A stretch of DNA of 64,000 nucleotides from Desulfonatronum lacustre DSM 10312. Lineage in GTDB: Bacteria > Desulfobacterota > Desulfovibrionia > Desulfovibrionales > Desulfonatronaceae. Made by a program: the position numbers and the translations under genes. Shown piece by piece: positions 13,873 through 22,442 of the stretch. The stretch lies in assembly GCF_000519265.1 (NCBI RefSeq), contig NZ_KI912608.1:1928582-1992581 (forward strand). Reading direction: 5' to 3'. Below the pieces are notes generated by a model. That model saw only the letters and a program-made list of their open reading frames with translations, had not been told where the DNA came from and did no database searches. The first letter of the stretch is position 1, and each line of letters starts with the position of its first letter.

Positions 13873-14244
13873 CTAGCTGCGGGCTGTCTTGCCTTCGTCG
13901 TCGGAATCCATGTCCTGGACTTCCGGCATTTCGATCACCGGACCGCTGACCGCGAGCGACGATCCTTCATTTTCGGCGTCCTGTTCCGGTTCATCCGAGG
14001 AAATACTCATCTCCTGGGGAACCTCCCGGTACCAGGCCAGCTCCATCTCGAATTTTTCCTTCCCTTTTTTCGCGGTAGCCTTGACCTCCACGTCCACCAT
14101 CTTGTCCGGGCAAAGGGTCACGAACTGCTCGCCCTGTTGGACGCAGATTTTGCCCTCCTTCAAGGAATTCGCCAGATCCTCCAGATAGGTCACCACCTGG
14201 TTGACGTCCATCACGCCTTTCAACTTCACTTCTTTTTTCGACAT
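13873..14244 (-). CDS. Amphi-Trp domain protein with acidic tail
   Basis: Residues 1-75 match what I know as the amphi-Trp domain: a short amphipathic beta/alpha module beginning KKEVKLKGVMD and ending with the conserved FEMELAWYRE, where the Trp lies in a strand. The function of the domain is unknown. A 48-residue tail very rich in Asp, Glu and Ser follows (SSDEPEQDAENEGSS), which the second amphi-Trp protein of the operon (19352-19633) lacks. The start has GAGGAG seven bases upstream. It is the last gene of the GAK-type operon, separated from the CofD-like gene by 158 bases containing a perfect hairpin. Confidence 0.8.
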   Translation of the reverse strand: MSKKEVKLKGVMDVNQVVTYLEDLANSLKEGKICVQQGEQFVTLCPDKMVDVEVKATAKKGKEKFEMELAWYREVPQEMSISSDEPEQDAENEGSSLAVSGPVIEMPEVQDMDSDDEGKTARS

Positions 14245-14299
14245 GGCCGGCTCCTCTGATTGTTGGTTGTTGTTCCATTTCCCTGCAAGGGAGAAGTAT

Positions 14300-14323
14300 A
14301 TCCGGTGGTTTCAACCACCGGAT
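14300..14323. repeat. Perfect intercistronic hairpin
   Basis: An 11-bp perfect inverted repeat (14300-14310 with 14313-14323) around a 2-base centre lies in the 158-base gap between the CofD-like gene and the last amphi-Trp gene. No T run follows on either strand, so it is more likely an RNA-processing or stability element, or a protein site, than a terminator. Confidence 0.55.
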
Positions 14324-14402
14324 TGAGGCATATCATTGGCTTGAGTCCTGAAAAAAAGACATCGCATGCCGAAAATAAGTGTCGCTGCAGTCTTTCAAGT
14401 AA

Positions 14403-15608
14403 TCAGATCAGGGACAACAAGCTCCGAATCACCCTGTCTCCGTCCAGGAGGGCTGCCGAGGACGCGCCGGGGTCGCTTCCGGCCAGCGGGATGCGTAAAA
14501 CATCGACCCCCAGATCCCGCACGGCGGCCACGTCCACGGGCTGAGCGTAGCTCTCGTCGCGGGAGTCCAGGAGTACGAGGTTCAGCAGCCGCTCCACGGG
14601 CAGGTCGGCCACGCAGCTTCGGCGCAGGTAATGCAACAGGGCAGCGGTGTTGTCCGCCAGGGTCATCCCGAACTGTTCCGGGTCCATCCCGGCATTGGGC
14701 ACGTAGACCTTGGGGCAGTCGTTCTCGGCGATGGCCTGCCCTACGCCGTCAGGCAGCAGGTTGGCGATCAGGCTGGAATAGAAGCTGCCCATGGGAAAGC
14801 AGATCAGATCGGCCTGACGGATCAGGTTGCGCACCTTCTCGCGGATGGCCACCCGAACCGGCTCGCCCCGCGTATCTCCGGAACGAATGCAAACCCGCTT
14901 GACCCTGGAGGTGATGGGCGGTGCTTCCTTGCCCGTGAGCAAATGCTGGCCGACGATGATCTCACCGTTTTCCAGTTCCGCGGCCAGGTGCAGATAACGG
15001 TTCATGGTCGGCCGGACCACGCCGCGAACCTCGGCCAACTTGGAAAACAGAAAGACCACCGAGTCGATGCGCCGTTGGCTGGTCAGGTAGCCGGCGGCCA
15101 GGATCAGGTTTCCGATGCTGGCCCCGCGCAGATCGAAATCCTCCGGCATCTTTTCCTGGAAAATACGCAGATAATTGCGGACGATCTTGCGCATCGGGTC
15201 CGGGATGCGCCGTACCAGAGCGCCCCGGCCCGCAACCAGCCGTTCCAGGCTGTAACGCAGTTCCTCCGGGGCGGCGCTTTTGGCCAGCCGGTGGGCGAAC
15301 AGCTCCCGGACTTCCGGGTTGCCCTTCACGCTCTGGTCCGCCAGGGCCATCAACCTGCTGCGCAGATCCCCCACCGCGGGCATCCGGAAAGCTTCCCGCA
15401 ACTTGGCCGAACTGCCCCCGGAATCCAGGGGCGTGACAAGATGAATGGAATTGTGCGTGTAGCGAACCAGCTCCCGACTCAAGGGGTTCAATGCCGTGCC
15501 GCCGCTGAAAAACAGCACCCGCGGTCCCAGCTCCGGCGCCTTCAGGTACCGGGCCAGGCGCAGCTCGTCAGGAATCAGCGCGGTTCGGGAGATACGGATG
15601 TGTTGCAC
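14403..15608 (-). CDS. GAK-system CofD-like protein
   Basis: A 401-residue relative of CofD (2-phospho-lactate transferase) and YvcK/GlmR. The UDP-sugar/nucleotide-binding signature SGGTALNPLS is at 35-44 and TPLDSGGSSAKLREAF at 59-74. RGASIGNL (near 163) and the late MGSFYSSLIANLL and VYVPNAG segments are further family landmarks. CofD transfers a phospho-lactyl group in F420 synthesis, but the set of neighbours here fits the separate GAK-type group and no F420 genes are present. The start is GTG at 15608, with GGAG seven bases before it. It follows the kinase gene by 15 bases. Confidence 0.8.
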   Translation of the reverse strand: MQHIRISRTALIPDELRLARYLKAPELGPRVLFFSGGTALNPLSRELVRYTHNSIHLVTPLDSGGSSAKLREAFRMPAVGDLRSRLMALADQSVKGNPEVRELFAHRLAKSAAPEELRYSLERLVAGRGALVRRIPDPMRKIVRNYLRIFQEKMPEDFDLRGASIGNLILAAGYLTSQRRIDSVVFLFSKLAEVRGVVRPTMNRYLHLAAELENGEIIVGQHLLTGKEAPPITSRVKRVCIRSGDTRGEPVRVAIREKVRNLIRQADLICFPMGSFYSSLIANLLPDGVGQAIAENDCPKVYVPNAGMDPEQFGMTLADNTAALLHYLRRSCVADLPVERLLNLVLLDSRDESYAQPVDVAAVRDLGVDVLRIPLAGSDPGASSAALLDGDRVIRSLLSLI

Positions 15609-15623
15609 TGGTGAACTCCCTCC

Positions 15624-16772
15624 TCACCCCTCTCCCTGCTGCCCCAGATAGTGGACGCAGGCATCGGCCACATGGTCGAAGTCCACTCCGCCCCGGGCCT
15701 CGAATACCGTGCATTTTTTAAACATATCCAGATAGCTCTCAGGCTGGAAACGGTATGCGACGTCGGGCCGGGAGAGGAAGAACAGGCCCGGGGATTTGAT
15801 CACCGTGTCCAGCAGTTCCGGGCGTTGGGCCAGATCCACCAGTTCCAGGGAGGTGCGGGGATATTTGGGTTTCCAGTTCAGGATCACCAAGCCGACCATC
15901 CGGGCGGAGTCGAGAAATTTGCCCTGGCCGAAGCATTCATCCAGATAGACGTCGTGCTTGTGCTCGAGGTTCCACAGCTCGTCCGGCTCCATCCGGGCGT
16001 ACGCTTCCTTCTGGGAAGCGTCCAAAAGTCCGGACAGAGAGGGGTTGCCCAGAATCGTTCCCGGATTGACACGGGGAAGCTTGGCCACGCCGTGCATGAT
16101 CGGGCCGCCCTGAAGCGGATCCAATCCGGCGTCCTGGATCAACAGTCTATCATTGCTGACGAAGTCCAGGCCGCGGCGCATGATATGCAGGGCCAGAGTG
16201 GACTTGCCCATCCCGGAAAAACCGGCCAGGGCCAGACCGTTGCCGTTCAGGGAAACCCCGGCCGCATGGCAGAGCAGGCTGTTTCGATCCAGCATCCACT
16301 GGATGAAGCGGCTGTTGATGAAGTTGATCACCTGGTTGTCGTTGGCCAGGCAGGGGCCGACCGCCAGATGCGTTTCCCGGTCGAAATAAAAGAGCATCCC
16401 GGTGAGGCGCTTGCGGACGAACCGCCCCTCTCCATCCTCAAAGGGCAGATCCTGATACTCTTCCTTGATCTTGGTCTTGCCCGGATCAGGCTGCTTGGCC
16501 ATCCACGGCAGGCCTGGATTCCAAACATCCGTCTCCAGGGCGGTCACGGTCATGTCCGGAGCATCGCCGCTTCCGAAGTCCTTGCCCCGGTCCAGAAAAT
16601 CCCTGTAGTAGCGCGTAAGGTTCGTGACCAACGCGGGATTGTTCGCCCTCACGGCGATCCGGCAGTCTCCGAAGCGCAGCCGCAGCGACGCCCAGGCGTC
16701 TATTCCGGCATCGACTTCGGCGATTCGTTCCAGGAGTTCGACGCGGAGGCTTTCAGCCGGAACAGTGCTCAT
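15624..16772 (-). CDS. HprK-related kinase (type B, GAK system)
   Basis: This 382-residue protein resembles the catalytic core of HPr kinase. A Walker A loop GFSGMGKST is at 184-192, CHAAGVS precedes it at 168-174 (compare the LHAS of HprK), and SNDRLL at 206-211 occupies the place of the HprK acidic pair. The N-terminal 160 residues are unlike HprK. No HPr gene is near, so the substrate is probably another protein or small molecule of this operon. Its ATG overlaps the stop of the ATP-grasp gene by four bases (ATGA), indicating translational coupling. Confidence 0.8.
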   Translation of the reverse strand: MSTVPAESLRVELLERIAEVDAGIDAWASLRLRFGDCRIAVRANNPALVTNLTRYYRDFLDRGKDFGSGDAPDMTVTALETDVWNPGLPWMAKQPDPGKTKIKEEYQDLPFEDGEGRFVRKRLTGMLFYFDRETHLAVGPCLANDNQVINFINSRFIQWMLDRNSLLCHAAGVSLNGNGLALAGFSGMGKSTLALHIMRRGLDFVSNDRLLIQDAGLDPLQGGPIMHGVAKLPRVNPGTILGNPSLSGLLDASQKEAYARMEPDELWNLEHKHDVYLDECFGQGKFLDSARMVGLVILNWKPKYPRTSLELVDLAQRPELLDTVIKSPGLFFLSRPDVAYRFQPESYLDMFKKCTVFEARGGVDFDHVADACVHYLGQQGEG

Positions 16773-17644
16773 GATTGCACCCGATTCAGGACGTGCTCCG
16801 CAAAATGCACCGAGGCATCCAGGCCCCGGGCCTCAAGCAGGCCGCGAAAACCGCCGAAGGCCGAAACTTCGAAGATCATCGGTCCGTCCTTGGATTCCAT
16901 CACGTCCACGCAGGTGAAGTCCAGCTTGAACAGGTTCTGGGCCGTCCAGGCCAGATCGATGACCTCCTTGCCCGGCTCATAGCCCGCGTACTTGCCTCCG
17001 CTGGACGTGGACGTGTTCCAGGCCCCGGAACTCTGCCGGGCATACGTCCCGAAATACTCTCCCCCCAGGAAGACGATGCCTAGATCCTTGCCCGGCGTTT
17101 CCAACATTTTCTGGATGTACATCACGGGATTGCCCTGTTGTTGAAAGCGAATGATCCGCTCCCGGCATGAGGGGTCGGCCTGGATCACCTCCATGCCCCG
17201 GGCCTTGGAGGTGTAGAGCGGTTTGAAAACGGCCCTCCCGTATGTTTCCACGGCCTCCACCGCGGCTTCCACGTCCTCGGTGATGGTGGTCGGCGGCATG
17301 GGCATGTTTCCGGCCCGCAGGATCACGGTGCAGCTCAGACGATTGAGGGCCGAGAGGATGGCGGTCGGGTTGGAGAAGATGGGCGTCCCGTTCCGGGCCA
17401 GCAGCTCCAAAAGGCTCAAACGGTCTTGCATGTCCGGCGAATAGACCGGGCCGATCTTCTTCACGGTCAAGGCGTCGAAGGTCGACAGATCTTCACCGTT
17501 GAACCACATCCGTCCGCTGTCCAGGTCCATATGCACCCCGGCCATGTCCACGACGCGGCGAAAACCGGTCCTGGCCTCAAAAGCGTCGGCCAGCTTCTCC
17601 GTAGACCAACTCCCGGGATTGCCGATGACCGCTATCCGTTGCAT
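16769..17644 (-). CDS. GAK-system ATP-grasp enzyme
   Basis: A RimK-like ATP-grasp ligase of 291 residues. Family features are the N-terminal pre-ATP-grasp fold (RIAVIGNPGS), the lysine strand AVFKPLYTSKARGMEVI near 140-156, and the metal-binding end FTCVDVMESKDGPMIFEVSAFGG near 247-269. Such enzymes form amide or thioester bonds through an acyl phosphate. The frame extends to 17689, but the ATG at 17644 has AGGA seven bases upstream and begins the conserved fold. It is coupled to the HprK-like gene downstream and follows the PhoU-kinase fusion by 54 bases. Confidence 0.82.
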   Translation of the reverse strand: MQRIAVIGNPGSWSTEKLADAFEARTGFRRVVDMAGVHMDLDSGRMWFNGEDLSTFDALTVKKIGPVYSPDMQDRLSLLELLARNGTPIFSNPTAILSALNRLSCTVILRAGNMPMPPTTITEDVEAAVEAVETYGRAVFKPLYTSKARGMEVIQADPSCRERIIRFQQQGNPVMYIQKMLETPGKDLGIVFLGGEYFGTYARQSSGAWNTSTSSGGKYAGYEPGKEVIDLAWTAQNLFKLDFTCVDVMESKDGPMIFEVSAFGGFRGLLEARGLDASVHFAEHVLNRVQS

Positions 17645-17698
17645 GCGTCTTTCCTTTTGCTTCTGATGGAGTTTCGGGTTCGGAACCACCGGCCCAGG

Positions 17699-19345
17699 TC
17701 AATAATACCGATACCGCAGGATGTGATCCGGCACCTTGAATGTCTCCCAGGGCTTGCCGCGATGGGCCAGGACCAGTTCGGCGAGATAAATTCCCCTGAC
17801 GAACATGCTCGCAGCGAATTCCTCGTTCAATTCGAACCGGGTCGAGGTGATGAAGGAACGGATCAAGCCCAGAGCGAGGCGGATTTCAAAGGTCGCATCC
17901 TGGTGCTCCCGAGCGAATTGTCGGGCAAAATGCAGAAAGTGCAGGCCGACCTGATTCAGCTTGCATCGAACGACCTTGTCGAAAATCGGAATCCGGAAGT
18001 TGGACACCAGAAATACGGACACGTCCTGCAGATAATCCCCGTCCTTGGAGCGATGGACGTCGATGTAGTGAATGCGCTGCTCTTTCTGAGTATAGATAAT
18101 GTTGTTGCTGTTGTAGTCCCCGTGAATGAACACCGTAAACGGAGAGGTTGCCTTCCTTTCCACTTCGCGCAGTTGTTCCAGCAGTTCCATGGTCGAAGGA
18201 ACCTTCAGGCCGCAGAACTGTACCTGGGGCGCGTTGAATTCCGGATGGGCCACGAAAACGTCCTCGACGCGGGAAAACAACTGTTCGATGAACGTGCAGG
18301 GAAGCTCTCTGGTTTGGAGCGTTTTCTGCCAGATCATGGTCGCGGTTTCCTGAACCAGAAAAAACGCGTCCTCGAACGTCTCCTTGTCGTCGTTGAAGAC
18401 GATTTCCTGAAACGTGCATCCCGTCAAAAACTCCAACAGGATCGAAGCGTTGTCCCGGCTTTCCTGAAACCCGAACACCTTGGGCGTCAGGCCGGGCAGA
18501 ATCGCTTCCCATATCTGGATGTTTTCCCTTTCCTGGGCGATCTTCTTGAACTTGCCTTCCTTGAAGATGACCCCGGTGGAATCGCCCTGGCCGTCGCTGG
18601 AAACCTTCCCGATCCGGCAGCCTGACCGGGTTCCCCAAATGGATTCGAACTCCACCTCCCGCATCGGCAGGTCGAACCCCAGGTTGTCCAGGGATTCGCG
18701 CAGGGCCTGAAACTGGTTGATCTTCAGCTTCTCGCCGACCACGGAAAAGATCACCGCCTCCCCGATGTTCAGCAAAGAGTCCCCCATCCGCTCCAGATAC
18801 CGAAAGATGAACAAGGTGGTGATCAGGTTGTGGGTCGCGCGGCGGGCTTGAAGCTGGGAGATGATCGTGTCGAAATTGTGCTTGTAGAGCTTGTCCAGGA
18901 TGAATTCGGACCGGCAGATGCGCAAGGCCAGGGAGAGGTCCCGGTGGAACAGGGCGCGGACCACGATGTCCAGAGCCCCGAGAATCTGACGAAAAAACGG
19001 CCGGTATTCGTACTGATCCAGGAAGCGAGGATCGGAAAGATACTGCACCTGGCGGACGATATTCACGGAAAAATCGCTGATCCGCTCCAGATTGCTGCTG
19101 ATGATGTTCACGGCGCGGATAAAGTCGATCCCGGCCTTATCCAGATGGGCCTGGCTGTGCAGCCGTGAAAAACAGGTATTTTCTATGACGCTCTTGAAGT
19201 TGTCGATATAGTCGTCCCGGGAGGCGACCTTCTCGATGTTCGCGGCTTCCGGCGCGACCAGCACCTTCAGGGTCTCGTCCACCTGTTTGGCCACTTCCAA
19301 AACCATGAATTGGATTTTCTGCTCCAGTCCCTCGAAAGCGTGCAT
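17699..19345 (-). CDS. PhoU-like domain fused to aminoglycoside-phosphotransferase-like kinase
   Basis: This 548-residue protein has two parts. Residues 1-225 are a helical bundle with two PhoU-type repeats (FIRAVNIISSNLERISDFSVN and FIFRYLERMGDSLLNIGEAV show the E-R-x-x-D metal motif). Residues 245-548 look like an APH/choline-kinase fold: HGDYNSNNII (catalytic loop) and YIDVHRSKDGDYLQDVSVFL (metal-binding segment). A glycine-rich ATP loop is hard to see at the beginning of the kinase. PhoU proteins regulate phosphate uptake, so a phosphate-linked kinase is plausible. It lies between amphi-Trp and ATP-grasp genes with gaps of 6 and 54 bases. I know no characterised protein with this arrangement. 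Confidence 0.75.
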   Translation of the reverse strand: MHAFEGLEQKIQFMVLEVAKQVDETLKVLVAPEAANIEKVASRDDYIDNFKSVIENTCFSRLHSQAHLDKAGIDFIRAVNIISSNLERISDFSVNIVRQVQYLSDPRFLDQYEYRPFFRQILGALDIVVRALFHRDLSLALRICRSEFILDKLYKHNFDTIISQLQARRATHNLITTLFIFRYLERMGDSLLNIGEAVIFSVVGEKLKINQFQALRESLDNLGFDLPMREVEFESIWGTRSGCRIGKVSSDGQGDSTGVIFKEGKFKKIAQERENIQIWEAILPGLTPKVFGFQESRDNASILLEFLTGCTFQEIVFNDDKETFEDAFFLVQETATMIWQKTLQTRELPCTFIEQLFSRVEDVFVAHPEFNAPQVQFCGLKVPSTMELLEQLREVERKATSPFTVFIHGDYNSNNIIYTQKEQRIHYIDVHRSKDGDYLQDVSVFLVSNFRIPIFDKVVRCKLNQVGLHFLHFARQFAREHQDATFEIRLALGLIRSFITSTRFELNEEFAASMFVRGIYLAELVLAHRGKPWETFKVPDHILRYRYY

Positions 19346-19351
19346 GAATGC

Positions 19352-19633
19352 CTAGCCTTTTTCCTTGGCTTCAATAACCAGCGGACCATCCACGAACATG
19401 CTGCTCTCCGAGGCCTGCTCCCAGCGAAAACGCAAAACCATCTTCACCTCGCCGTCCTTTTTCTTGGTCTCCACGTCGAACTTGATCAGGCTCTGTGGTT
19501 CCAGAACCAAGCGCTTGTCCTTCCAGGAAAATTGCAGCTTGCCGTTCAGGAAGCCGTCGCTGAGCGCATTGAGATACTTGCCGATGGATTCCTTGTCCTG
19601 CAAGGATTCGTGCCGAAACTTTTCATCCGCCAT
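19352..19633 (-). CDS. Amphi-Trp domain protein (short)
   Basis: A 93-residue member of the same family as 13873-14244, with the same pattern: a basic N-terminus, the strand KLQFSWKDKRLVLEPQ, and KMVLRFRWEQ ending the domain with the conserved Trp. It lacks the acidic tail. Two amphi-Trp proteins in one operon is a hallmark of this locus. It ends six bases before the PhoU-kinase gene. Confidence 0.8.
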   Translation of the reverse strand: MADEKFRHESLQDKESIGKYLNALSDGFLNGKLQFSWKDKRLVLEPQSLIKFDVETKKKDGEVKMVLRFRWEQASESSMFVDGPLVIEAKEKG

Positions 19634-19690
19634 GTTCGTTCTCGCTTTATTGTAGTTGCAATGCCCAAACTCCAGCCTTGGGAAATCTGC

Positions 19691-19730
19691 CTCCTGCCCC
19701 CCGACTCCTGACTCCTGAATTCCGACTTCT
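19691..19730. repeat. Degenerate heptamer repeat (site 1)
   Basis: CTCCTG / ACTCCTGA / ATTCCGACT units in a 108-base gap within the GAK-type operon. It has the same sequence type as the repeats at 30873-30940 and 40566-40613 on the same strand, and the inverted copy at 37261-37293. Confidence 0.6.
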
Positions 19731-19741
19731 GTCTCTCTTTC

Positions 19742-20926
19742 TCACCCATCCAGTCGTGCTCGATATTCCTCAATGCTCCGCGCCCGGCTGGCATTGCCCA
19801 CGATCAGGCTTTTGCGGATGGACAGGTCGTCCCAGGCCGGCTGAACGCCGATGTCCCGATAGTACTTTTCAGCTTCGGCCTGGGCGGGGTCCTTGAGCTT
19901 TTCGGTCATGTGCGTGTCGTCGCCCATGAACACCAGCAAGGAGCGGTCGTCCACGCCCCGGCTCTTGTTCTGCCGGTTGATCACGTTGACCAGGAACTCG
20001 GTGTACTCCTGGGACTGAGGATTCCAGACCTCGTAGCCGTCCACGTCGTAATCCGCCAACAGAATCGGCCAGAACTGCTCCGGGTGCGGAACCACCACGC
20101 CACCACCCAAGGCCCTGGCTTCCTCGATAAACTCGGAGGTCCGGTAAAAATAGGTCGGGCTGAAATTTTCCTTGACCATACGCTTGACGGTCTTCAGGAA
20201 CACCTGGGCCCGGTGGACCAGGGATTCGGGATAAAGGTCCGCCTGGGCGGTGATGAACTCCCGGATCAGCTTGTTCTTGATCATGTCCCGGGGAAGGCTC
20301 TGCTCATGTTCGTCCAGGAGCATTCGCAGCTTCATGGCCTGTATCCGGGAAAATCGGACCACGTCCTCGTCCACTCCGGTTTCCTCGGCGGCCAACTGCA
20401 AATAGTCCTCGAACTTGGTGTTGGTGACCATGTCCAGAAAGGCGTACAACTGGCCGGAACGGTACCGGAAGGTGTGGTCCAGCATGGACTTGAACACGTC
20501 CGCGGATTCCAGCCTGCTGGTCCGGAAGTGCAGCAACAGCTGGACCTTGCGCTGGAAGCCGTGGGAATAGCAGTCCACCTCCACCCCGGAGTAGTCACCG
20601 TACTCCATGAGCACGTTGTGCTGGGTGGGAATGATCAATTCGCATGCCTTGCTGGGAAAGGTGCCCTCGATCCGTTTACGAATCAGATCCATGGGAACGT
20701 ACTCCGGGTGCCAATGAATGGCCAACACCTCGTCCTGCCGGGGCAGCACCTCCAGCGGGGTAACGATCCGCCGCACCTGCTCCGGGGTCAGTTCCTGGGA
20801 CGTGATCGCACGGAAGCACGCAACGTCCGCCTCGGTCAATCGCGGCGGATACTCCAAACTCTTCACCACCATTTTGGAGTCGTCCCGTTTGACGATTTCC
20901 ATTTTCCTACTTTTCACGGCCAACAT
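19742..20926 (-). CDS. PHP-superfamily metal-dependent hydrolase-like protein
   Basis: A 394-residue protein with scattered metal-ligand motifs of the PHP phosphoesterase superfamily: IHWHPEYVP (His71, His73), VPHPEQFWP (His281), DVDGYEVWNPQ near 294-304, and MGDDTHMTEK ending with His339. The spacing fits a trinuclear metal site, with helical insertion between residues 130 and 270. The frame continues upstream to 20977, but the ATG at 20926 is preceded by GGGAGG at five bases. It is the second gene of the GAK-type operon, 29 bases after the XXXCH gene. The substrate is unknown; a phosphate monoester or a phosphorylated product of the neighbouring kinases is a reasonable guess. Confidence 0.6.
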   Translation of the reverse strand: MLAVKSRKMEIVKRDDSKMVVKSLEYPPRLTEADVACFRAITSQELTPEQVRRIVTPLEVLPRQDEVLAIHWHPEYVPMDLIRKRIEGTFPSKACELIIPTQHNVLMEYGDYSGVEVDCYSHGFQRKVQLLLHFRTSRLESADVFKSMLDHTFRYRSGQLYAFLDMVTNTKFEDYLQLAAEETGVDEDVVRFSRIQAMKLRMLLDEHEQSLPRDMIKNKLIREFITAQADLYPESLVHRAQVFLKTVKRMVKENFSPTYFYRTSEFIEEARALGGGVVVPHPEQFWPILLADYDVDGYEVWNPQSQEYTEFLVNVINRQNKSRGVDDRSLLVFMGDDTHMTEKLKDPAQAEAEKYYRDIGVQPAWDDLSIRKSLIVGNASRARSIEEYRARLDG

Positions 20927-20955
20927 CGCGCCCTCCCTTTGCTCGTGCTTTCCGG

Positions 20956-21639
20956 TCAATCGTACTTCTTGTGACATTGGGTCTTGAGCGTGTTCAGCAC
21001 GTGCGTCGCCTGGTACGCGGCCTCCAGATCCTTGCGCTGAACCGCGTCGGCGAATGCGGCCACGGCCTCGGTGTAGGCGGAATAGAATTCATCACCCTTG
21101 CCCGGATACCGGACCATGTCCGCGGAGTCGCGCAGGAATTCGTCGATATCCATCTGGGACGGCCAACTGTTTTCATGCAGGGAGTACATGATGTTCTTGA
21201 ACGACTTCTTCATCCGTTTTTTCAAGGAACCATAGCTCCCGCCGGGTTTGCCGAGCTTTTGGGGCATGCCCGATACTTGCACCTCAAATGCCTCCCCGGT
21301 CCGGTCCTGGTCCTGGTCCTGGTCCTGGTCCTGAGTCTGGCCCTGGTCCTGCTCCAAATCACGGGGCTGGGCATCCAATCCGTTACCAGCAACACTTTCG
21401 ACTTCTTCCAGGTCATCGGGGAGATCGAACGTGCGATCACCGGATGAAATCCGGATCTTCACATCCGCCATGCCCGCGGCGTTGCGAATAGTCAGCGATA
21501 TCTTCTCCACTGAGTTCCAGGCGAGTTCCATGGTGTCCAGACTCAACCGTCCCCGCTCCATGGCATCGGCCATGCTACGCAGAATTTCCGCTAACTGCTC
21601 CGGGGAGCAGGTCATCTTCATTTTGTCTTCACGTTCCAT
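20956..21639 (-). CDS. GAK-system XXXCH-type protein
   Basis: The first gene of the operon, with an excellent AGGAGG site. Residues 1-75 resemble an amphi-Trp-like helix-strand module (MTCSPEQLAEILRSMADAMERG, then ISLTIRNAAGM). A linker of alternating Asp and Gln follows (about 98-113), encoded by five tandem GGTCCT hexamers on the plus strand. Residues 130-227 are helical and end with LKTQCHKKYD, the Cys-His end for which I know this family as 'XXXCH'. Such a module occurs near heme-binding or small phosphocarrier-like domains, but I see no second ligand. It is probably a partner or substrate of the operon's enzymes; that is inference. Confidence 0.7.
   Translation of the reverse strand: MEREDKMKMTCSPEQLAEILRSMADAMERGRLSLDTMELAWNSVEKISLTIRNAAGMADVKIRISSGDRTFDLPDDLEEVESVAGNGLDAQPRDLEQDQGQTQDQDQDQDQDRTGEAFEVQVSGMPQKLGKPGGSYGSLKKRMKKSFKNIMYSLHENSWPSQMDIDEFLRDSADMVRYPGKGDEFYSAYTEAVAAFADAVQRKDLEAAYQATHVLNTLKTQCHKKYD
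21303..21332. repeat. In-frame hexamer microsatellite in XXXCH gene
   Basis: Five exact GGTCCT units on the plus strand encode alternating Asp-Gln on the minus strand. The unit length keeps the frame when copies are gained or lost. The flanks contain two diverged copies. Confidence 0.9.
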
Positions 21640-21689
21640 GGAACCTCCTGTTTATCCCTTTAAAACTCCGTACGCGCCAAGAACTCAAA

Positions 21690-21735
21690 AAGAAAAAGCC
21701 CGTCGCGCTCAGGACGCTGAACGCGACGGACCTTT
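21690..21735 (-). terminator. Terminator-like hairpin upstream of the GAK operon (possible attenuator)
   Basis: An 8-bp perfect stem CCGTCGCG/CGCGACGG (21700-21707 with 21722-21729) runs on the minus strand into CTTTTTCTTTTT. It lies 60 bases before the start of the first operon gene, in the direction of that operon. No minus-strand gene ends upstream of it, so it may regulate read-through from a promoter further up (21740-22200) or end a short transcript. Confidence 0.6.
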
Positions 21736-22442
21736 TCGAATGGAGGTGCGAGGCAGATGGAGAGTGCCCTTGGAAGGGTTGGTTTGCATGACGATCATGT
21801 TACAATTTCCAGACGATTTGATGGCGTGTCCCATTTAATGACCTGAATGGCATGCTCCGTTTTGTCGTCGAATGCGGATTAAAATCCGTGACGAGTATTC
21901 CCCTGATGCCGTCCGTCGTCAATCCAAGGCTCGCCGGTCGAATATTTCTGTCGCGCGCGCTGCGGGAAGAGCAATTCCCAACGCCCCCACTGGCCCCACC
22001 ATGTAGCCATCCGCAAAAATCAGAAAACAAAAACATACCCAACGAATACGACAATTTCGCGTCATCGGCTCAGCGAGGCCCCTACCGAACCCTTCTTGAC
22101 GGGAGCGACCAATTACACGGCAATTCTCCACAAATAAAAACAAAAACTTCCTAAAAGCAAAGTTGCTCACCACAAGAGCAAACAAAATTACCGGTAATGA
22201 CGCATTATTAACCCACAAATAGTAAAAAATACTCTGGTAAATACATATATAAATTTGACACGCAATGAAATAGACATAAATACAATACCGTTCGCTTCAC
22301 ATTTCAAGAATAGCCAAAATACTTCTTTCACTATCCTCAAAAAAAATCGCAATTTTTTTTTGCGTATGCTGGTTTTCCTTCCCCTTTCTTATCTCTTTTG
22401 CGAATCGCGGATTTTCAGTTTTTCAAAATAGTGAAATTCATG

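Follow-up and report, generated by a model that had tools for sequence, protein, structure and literature searches.

A PhoU-APH fusion kinase as a conserved, constant but unnamed part of the orphan GAK system

Introduction

What is the role of a PhoU-type helical bundle that is joined, within one polypeptide, to a kinase of the APH type? The question is raised by a gene of Desulfonatronum lacustre DSM 10312 that lies in a 64,000-nucleotide stretch of DNA (hereafter, the window) of a genome consisting of a single 3.76-Mb contig. The initial annotation described the gene product as a fusion of these two domains and proposed that its operon is governed by phosphate availability. The analysis below leads to a different setting for the protein: the fusion is a conserved two-domain kinase that forms a constant but unnamed part of the orphan GAK system. 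Membership of this system is new relative to the initial annotation.

A PhoU-type bundle fused to an APH-type kinase

The interval first assigned to the gene (17699-19345) is exact, as an open reading frame with an ATG start spans precisely these positions. Its strand, left unstated in the initial annotation, is the minus strand, and the plus strand of the same interval contains stops in the frame translated there. Pfam detects PhoU in the protein in two stretches (2.2e-23; 82.9 bits against a cut-off of 23.5) and two kinase families in the C-terminal half, namely EcKL (3.8e-7, over the cut-off) and APH, which passes narrowly (4.1e-5; 23.9 bits against a cut-off of 23.2). Both PhoU and APH matches are present in 24/24 aligned family members including that of the window (E 0.001 for APH); this alignment omits one member with broken frames (G046) and one cut by a contig end (G193). 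When searched against solved structures, the 24-member profile matches PhoU at 5e-20 and APH(3') at 8.5e-5, and a profile of 18 kinase halves matches solved APH(3') at 1.4e-5. The AlphaFold2 model of the fusion, calculated from an alignment of just five sequences, has a mean pLDDT of 42, too low for the model to be used. On the basis of these profile and family matches, the fusion of a PhoU-type bundle to an APH-type kinase is real, as had first been proposed.

The family names invite the reading that the protein is an aminoglycoside resistance enzyme, since its top NCBIfam kinase match is APH_3p (8.4e-7) and the solved kinases matched are AphA1. The APH_3p match reaches 28.7 bits, far under the cut-off of 205, and the fixed position of the gene beside GAK genes in two distant groups argues against a resistance enzyme, leaving this reading highly improbable.

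The kinase half retains its catalytic residues

Passages of PMC3691515 describe the active site of APH(3')-IIIa, in which Lys44, Glu60, Asp190, Asn195, and Asp208 are the key residues, and the Brenner motif H-x-D-x-x-x-x-N. Both kinase signatures of the initial annotation, H408-G-D410-Y-N-S-N-N415 and Y-I-D429-V-H-R432-S, are found in the C-terminal half. The residues K262, E272, H408, G409, D410, N412, N415, D429, R432, S433, D437, and D441 are invariant in 27/27 sequences, a count made without two of the three Tritonibacter plasmids and from which the 18 profiled kinase halves were drawn. The comparison of active-site residues that the initial annotation had suggested thus finds the catalytic Lys and Glu, the HxDxxxxN motif, and the Mg-binding Asp of the APH superfamily kept in every sequence. 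K262 and E272 were assigned by motif and position, as the HMMER alignment to AphA1 (4feu) is confined to the C-terminal part. In that alignment, the D-x-x-R of the fusion falls on D-V-G-R of AphA1. The F/Y-x-K motif given in passages of PMC3691515 is inexact in the window, where it reads I-F-K. The APH(3') Lys that binds ATP, the Glu paired with this Lys, the catalytic Asp, and the Mg ligands all have their equivalents among the invariant residues.

The residue that follows the DFG position hints at the possible substrate class. Passages of PMC4702295 describe an Arg at DFG+1, specific to APH3, as holding the neighbour of the phosphorylated hydroxyl, and the fusion family carries an Arg at this position (R432) in 27/27 sequences. 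Mean pairwise identity among the 27 sequences is 40% in the PhoU half and 44% in the kinase half; the PhoU half is therefore not simply decaying. The constant role of the fusion looks like kinase activity, not phosphate sensing, to judge from the pattern of residue conservation.

The fusion lies within a complete set of GAK genes

The GAK system is represented in NCBIfam by TIGR04356, TIGR04357, and TIGR04358, which are linked here with TIGR04354 and TIGR04355. The full gene set (ATP-grasp, HprK_rel_B, CofD_rel, amphi-Trp, and XXXCH) occurs above the cut-offs within 13873-21639 of the window, in the same operon as the fusion. Read 5' to 3' on the minus strand, the run consists of genes for the XXXCH protein, a 411-aa protein, amphi-Trp A, the fusion, the ATP-grasp enzyme, HprK-related kinase B, the CofD-like protein, and amphi-Trp B (Table 1). 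Amphi-Trp A is directly upstream of the fusion with a gap of 7 bp. After its GAK model, the ATP-grasp enzyme matches MptN, a methanopterin glutamate ligase, best in NCBIfam (2.7e-42, under the cut-off). Neither the fusion nor the 411-aa protein matches any GAK model in the NCBIfam release searched.

Table 1. Features of the GAK operon and of the fusion kinase in the window
Feature	Position	Strand	Evidence or remark
XXXCH domain protein, first gene of the run	20956..21639	minus	TIGR04358, 95.4 bits (cut-off 40)
411-aa protein	19742..20977	minus	Unmatched to any family of Pfam, NCBIfam, or PADLOC
Amphi-Trp domain protein A, 93 aa	19352..19633	minus	TIGR04354, 62.6 bits (cut-off 31)
PhoU-APH fusion kinase, 548 aa	17699..19345	minus	PhoU-type ~1-225, APH-type kinase ~236-548
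Catalytic loop IHGDYNSNNII, residues 407-417	18095..18127	minus	H408, D410, N415 form the Brenner motif
D-V-H-R-S, residues 429-433	18047..18061	minus	Mg-binding Asp and Arg at DFG+1
GAK system ATP-grasp enzyme	16769..17689	minus	TIGR04356, 431 bits (cut-off 300); next after the fusion
HprK-related kinase B	15624..16772	minus	TIGR04355, 443 bits (cut-off 200)
GAK system CofD-like protein	14403..15608	minus	TIGR04357, 533 bits (cut-off 340)
Amphi-Trp domain protein B	13873..14244	minus	TIGR04354, 68.6 bits (cut-off 31)

The literature searched contained no paper on the GAK system and none on a PhoU-kinase fusion, although different wording could find more. In that literature the system, present here in Desulfonatronum-type bacteria and Rhodobacterales, is known only by its family names. 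Other settings for the operon were also considered. A defence system was rejected, as PADLOC matched none of the eight proteins. A cell-wall link through the neighbouring GlmU was likewise set aside: GlmU had no match in the 35 stretches scanned, and its position beside the operon therefore looks local.

Co-occurrence with GAK genes across the phylum

The initial annotation asked whether the fusion exists elsewhere. It does, in 22 of 297 genomes of the phylum among the matches listed and in five Rhodobacterales plasmids. A genome was counted where the match reaches through the kinase half (G046 and G193 included); the remaining matches listed cover the PhoU half only, to residue 258 at most. 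In the same sample, grasp_GAK is present in 21/297, HprK_rel_B in 20/297, and CofD_rel_GAK in 25/297 genomes. Among the matches listed, the fusion is shared by 20 of the 21 grasp_GAK, 19 of the 20 HprK_rel_B, and 16 of the 25 CofD_rel_GAK genomes, and its co-occurrence with grasp_GAK across the 297 genomes has a Fisher p of 8e-28. The sole grasp genome lacking the fusion among the matches listed (G078) has a completeness of 62%, and its contig breaks off within the grasp gene, at the flank where the fusion would be expected.

The fusion and the ATP-grasp gene are directly adjacent on the same strand in 17 of the 20 shared genomes. The gap, measured to the BLAST-aligned grasp start, is -12 to 52 bp in 16 of these; the seventeenth is G046 with its broken frames. 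In the remaining three genomes, the two genes are at two sites (G213, G277) or on two contigs (G042). A contig search that reached close relatives only (four loci) found Desulfonatronum and other Desulfovibrionales MAGs, 74-94% identical, each with the fusion next to the grasp gene, at a gap of 196 bp in one (L036). The fusion is thus a constant part of the GAK system, present in 20/21 grasp genomes and 5/5 plasmids; the assignment is our proposal, not that of NCBIfam.

Several genomes depart from the full arrangement. G219 (L061) and G241 (L064) carry the fusion with amphi-Trp and have no grasp, CofD_rel_GAK, or HprK_rel_B matches, an arrangement that is a reduced form of the GAK system. No HprK_rel_B and CofD matches were found in G118, and no CofD matches in G040, G042, and G295. 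Because these six genomes are without some of the partners, the fusion does not need the whole GAK set. An HD protein lies beside the fusion in G241; it passes the NCBIfam dGTPase cut-off and is for that reason excluded as a phosphatase partner.

A few further observations concern the make-up of individual loci. G219 also has a relative of the 411-aa protein. The GAK operon is split in G277 (L041/L042) and G213 (L043/L044), with a second HprK_rel_B beside the fusion. In G046 (L059), stops or frame changes interrupt the genes for the CofD-like protein, the fusion, and the 411-aa protein, and those for grasp and HprK are open, reflecting either decay or an assembly error. CofD_rel_GAK occurs without the fusion in nine of the 297 genomes (including L065, L066, and, in genus g3, L068, L069, and L070), seven of which belong to one genus of the same order.

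The system in Rhodobacterales plasmids

Five Rhodobacterales plasmid records, from Qingshengfaniella, Pseudooceanicola, and three Tritonibacter mobilis, encode a relative of the fusion with 29-32% identity over 97-98% of its length. A grasp_GAK relative (E 1e-20) is present in these five plasmid records and in no others. In all five, the fusion is directly upstream of the ATP-grasp gene with an 8-bp overlap, and the gene order is fusion, ATP-grasp, HprK-related kinase B, histidine phosphatase, metallophosphoesterase, and amphi-Trp, which places amphi-Trp at the far end of the run, away from the fusion. No XXXCH-named feature is present in the five plasmid tables, which are incomplete. The fusions are annotated in these records as 'phosphotransferase' or 'aminoglycoside phosphotransferase family protein'. 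Their PhoU halves are weaker, with Pfam values of 1e-9, 0.0022 (below the cut-off), and 2.4e-5 in the three scanned. Phage records hold no full-length relative of the fusion; six match the PhoU part only.

The PhoU half and the case for phosphate control

The metal motif of PhoU is E(D)xxxD, as given in PMC5686610. In the window both motifs are kept, in the two E-R-x-x-D helices that the initial annotation had pointed out (N-L-E87-R88-I-S-D91 and Y-L-E185-R186-M-G-D189). They are not kept throughout the fusion family. In the first motif, E87 and D91 are retained in 22/27 sequences; the five losses are the three aligned Rhodobacterales fusions and the GAK-less G219 and G241. In the second, E185 is retained in 24/27 and D189 in 25/27; one or both residues are lost in the three Rhodobacterales fusions and kept in G219 and G241. 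In a phylogenetic tree with 15 stand-alone PhoU rows (13 of them different), the PhoU halves form one group with a support of 100/100, which fits a single fusion event.

The homology of the N-terminal half to PhoU, as detected by Pfam, favors a model in which this half senses phosphate status, directly or via Pst/PhoR, and switches the kinase, so that the operon would belong to the phosphate economy. Genomic context lends the model some weight. Genes for pst-phoU adjoin the GAK operon in two of the 22 fusion genomes among the matches listed: a permease, an ATPase, and phoU, read as pstA-pstB-phoU, in G089 (L048), and the end of pstB, phoU, and a histidine kinase in G130 (L058). In G161 (L065), a genome without the fusion, a lone CofD_rel_GAK follows pstB-phoU. 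The pst names are our reading of permease and ATPase matches beside PhoU. A rough binomial estimate, made post hoc with a rough genome size, gives 0.009 for 2/22 and 0.0005 for 3/24 when G161 is included. Five fusion loci (G172, G089, G295, G254, and G130) have a PIN-PhoH gene nearby; PhoH is, however, a name and no proof of phosphate control. No phoU/pst cluster is present in the window or in the remaining fusion stretches scanned, some of which are short.

A scan for Pho boxes of the E. coli type returned one of 22 upstream regions at p <0.05, as chance gives, and three controls were blank too. The scan omitted L062, which is too short, as well as L059, L061, and L064; for some loci the region was placed relative to the aligned start instead of the true one, and for cut operons relative to the first gene that is there. 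The two lowest p values of the 22 are those of the loci that adjoin pst-phoU, L058 (0.04) and L048 (0.07). The highest-scoring Pho-box-like words of the window, L033, and L034 match 9, 9, and 10 of 14 positions (p 0.67, 0.63, and 0.14), and they coincide with an upstream block conserved in four genomes. Against phosphate sensing, the residues of the PhoU motifs are mostly lost in the Rhodobacterales fusions and the kinase residues never change in the 27 sequences. Furthermore, elsewhere in G000 a response regulator read as PhoB is followed by a pair of adjacent PhoU-type matches. The case for phosphate control is thin but not empty, and the model is considered unlikely. The initial proposal of an operon governed by phosphate availability stays a hypothesis; the window free of a phoU/pst cluster, the score below the NCBIfam cut-off for PhoU proper, and the loss of PhoU motifs in some family members speak against it.

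Side observations were made in the operon leader (21639-21804, minus strand). A terminator-like hairpin of 20 pairs (21737-21692) precedes the first start codon by ~50 nt, and the stretch CCTCGCACCTCCAT could pair with the Shine-Dalgarno region. The block TGTnACnTGAnCGTCATG lies upstream in the leader at 21804-21787. Both blocks are conserved in L033, L034, and L035; of the two loci scanned for the hairpin, it is present in L033 and absent in L034. In sequence, the leader looks like an attenuator, and Rfam returned a single match on it, far below the cut-off. As a candidate regulon site, TGTnACnTGAnCGTCATG was rejected: it has two other matches in the genome (two mismatches), none beside genes readable as Pho genes.

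The 411-aa protein

Nine residues of the 411-aa protein (H88, H90, H120, E133, H150, H298, P299, D354, and H356) are invariant in 21/21 members. By the order of its conserved His/Glu/Asp motifs alone, we take the protein to resemble a PHP-type metallo-phosphoesterase. A PHP identity was set aside, as three approaches gave it no support: none of the 21 members has a PHP match at E 0.1, no solved structure matches at E 1, and two proteins of the genome that match PHP (one of them slightly below the Pfam cut-off) reach probabilities <1% in hhalign. BLASTP finds no significant match between the 411-aa protein and the Rhodobacterales metallophosphoesterase. The AlphaFold2 model, made from five sequences, has a mean pLDDT of 41.

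A proposed second kinase of the GAK system

The fusion is best read as a second GAK kinase, an active APH-type enzyme that would work with the ATP-grasp enzyme, the HprK-like kinase, and a small amphi-Trp protein; judged from sequence and gene neighbourhood, the probability of this reading is put at roughly 60%. The C-terminal half is predicted to transfer phosphate from ATP to a hydroxyl. The acceptor probably belongs to a pair of neighbouring hydroxyls, such as an amino sugar or a sugar-like compound would carry, because the residue after DFG is always Arg, as in APH3 enzymes. The N-terminal bundle may link the kinase to its partners, as a docking or allosteric domain, rather than sense phosphate, by analogy with stand-alone PhoU, which acts on PhoR (passages of PMC4423584). 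The phosphorylated product would then be used by the ATP-grasp enzyme, which may form an amide bond, and by the CofD-like protein. A phosphoesterase of the same run would trim or reset the product, possibly the 411-aa protein here and the metallophosphoesterase together with the histidine phosphatase in Rhodobacterales. A peptide or protein may be the substrate of the HprK-like kinase, in the manner of its lasso-peptide homologues, which, in passages of PMC8498205, phosphorylate the C-terminal Ser of lasso precursor peptides. The substrate and the order of steps in this pathway are guesses.

The lasso-peptide kinases of PMC8498205 also make peptide substrates fit the operon, and the kinase half of the fusion could instead phosphorylate a protein partner (amphi-Trp or XXXCH) with the PhoU half as the docking site. 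Amphi-Trp A is the upstream neighbour of the fusion in the non-plasmid loci that have both, even in G219 and G241, which lack the GAK enzymes. XXXCH proteins keep a C-H near the C-terminus in 14/14 loci, with a Lys three residues before the Cys in 13. Nevertheless, small molecules are the substrates of the named APH-type kinases in the comparison, neighbouring hydroxyls are suggested by the Arg at DFG+1, and the incomplete plasmid tables have no XXXCH-named feature. A protein substrate is accordingly regarded as rather improbable, more so than phosphate control.

A broader version of the second-kinase reading is offered tentatively, and is considered rather unlikely. The product of the GAK operon may be a sugar-like cofactor or signal, phosphorylated, ligated, and as yet undescribed, assembled by two kinases unrelated to each other together with an ATP-grasp enzyme and a CofD-type protein; a metabolite kinase would here have taken up a PhoU-type bundle as its allosteric or docking domain. 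This would be a use of PhoU outside phosphate uptake, one that has outlived the loss of the metal motifs in one lineage.

Relation to known families and implications

The fusion combines features of two known families and differs from both. Like PhoU (PF01895; TIGR02135), it has two PhoU repeats, with E(D)xxxD motifs in most members; in contrast with PhoU proper, it is fused to a kinase, scores below the TIGR02135 cut-off (79.9 bits against 130.25), forms a separate group in the tree, and has lost the first motif in 5/27 family members and the second in three. The Brenner motif, the Mg-binding Asp, the Lys, the Glu, and the DFG+1 Arg are shared with APH(3')/APH (PF01636) and EcKL (PF02958), whereas a score far under the resistance-enzyme cut-off, the extra N-terminal PhoU-type domain, and another genetic setting distinguish it from APH(3').

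As one of the most constant parts of the GAK system, the PhoU-APH kinase adds a second kinase to it. Its active-site residues, the predicted substrate class, and a catalytically dead mutant would provide a handle on GAK function. More generally, a PhoU-type bundle can stay the fixed partner of a metabolite-type kinase even without its metal motifs.
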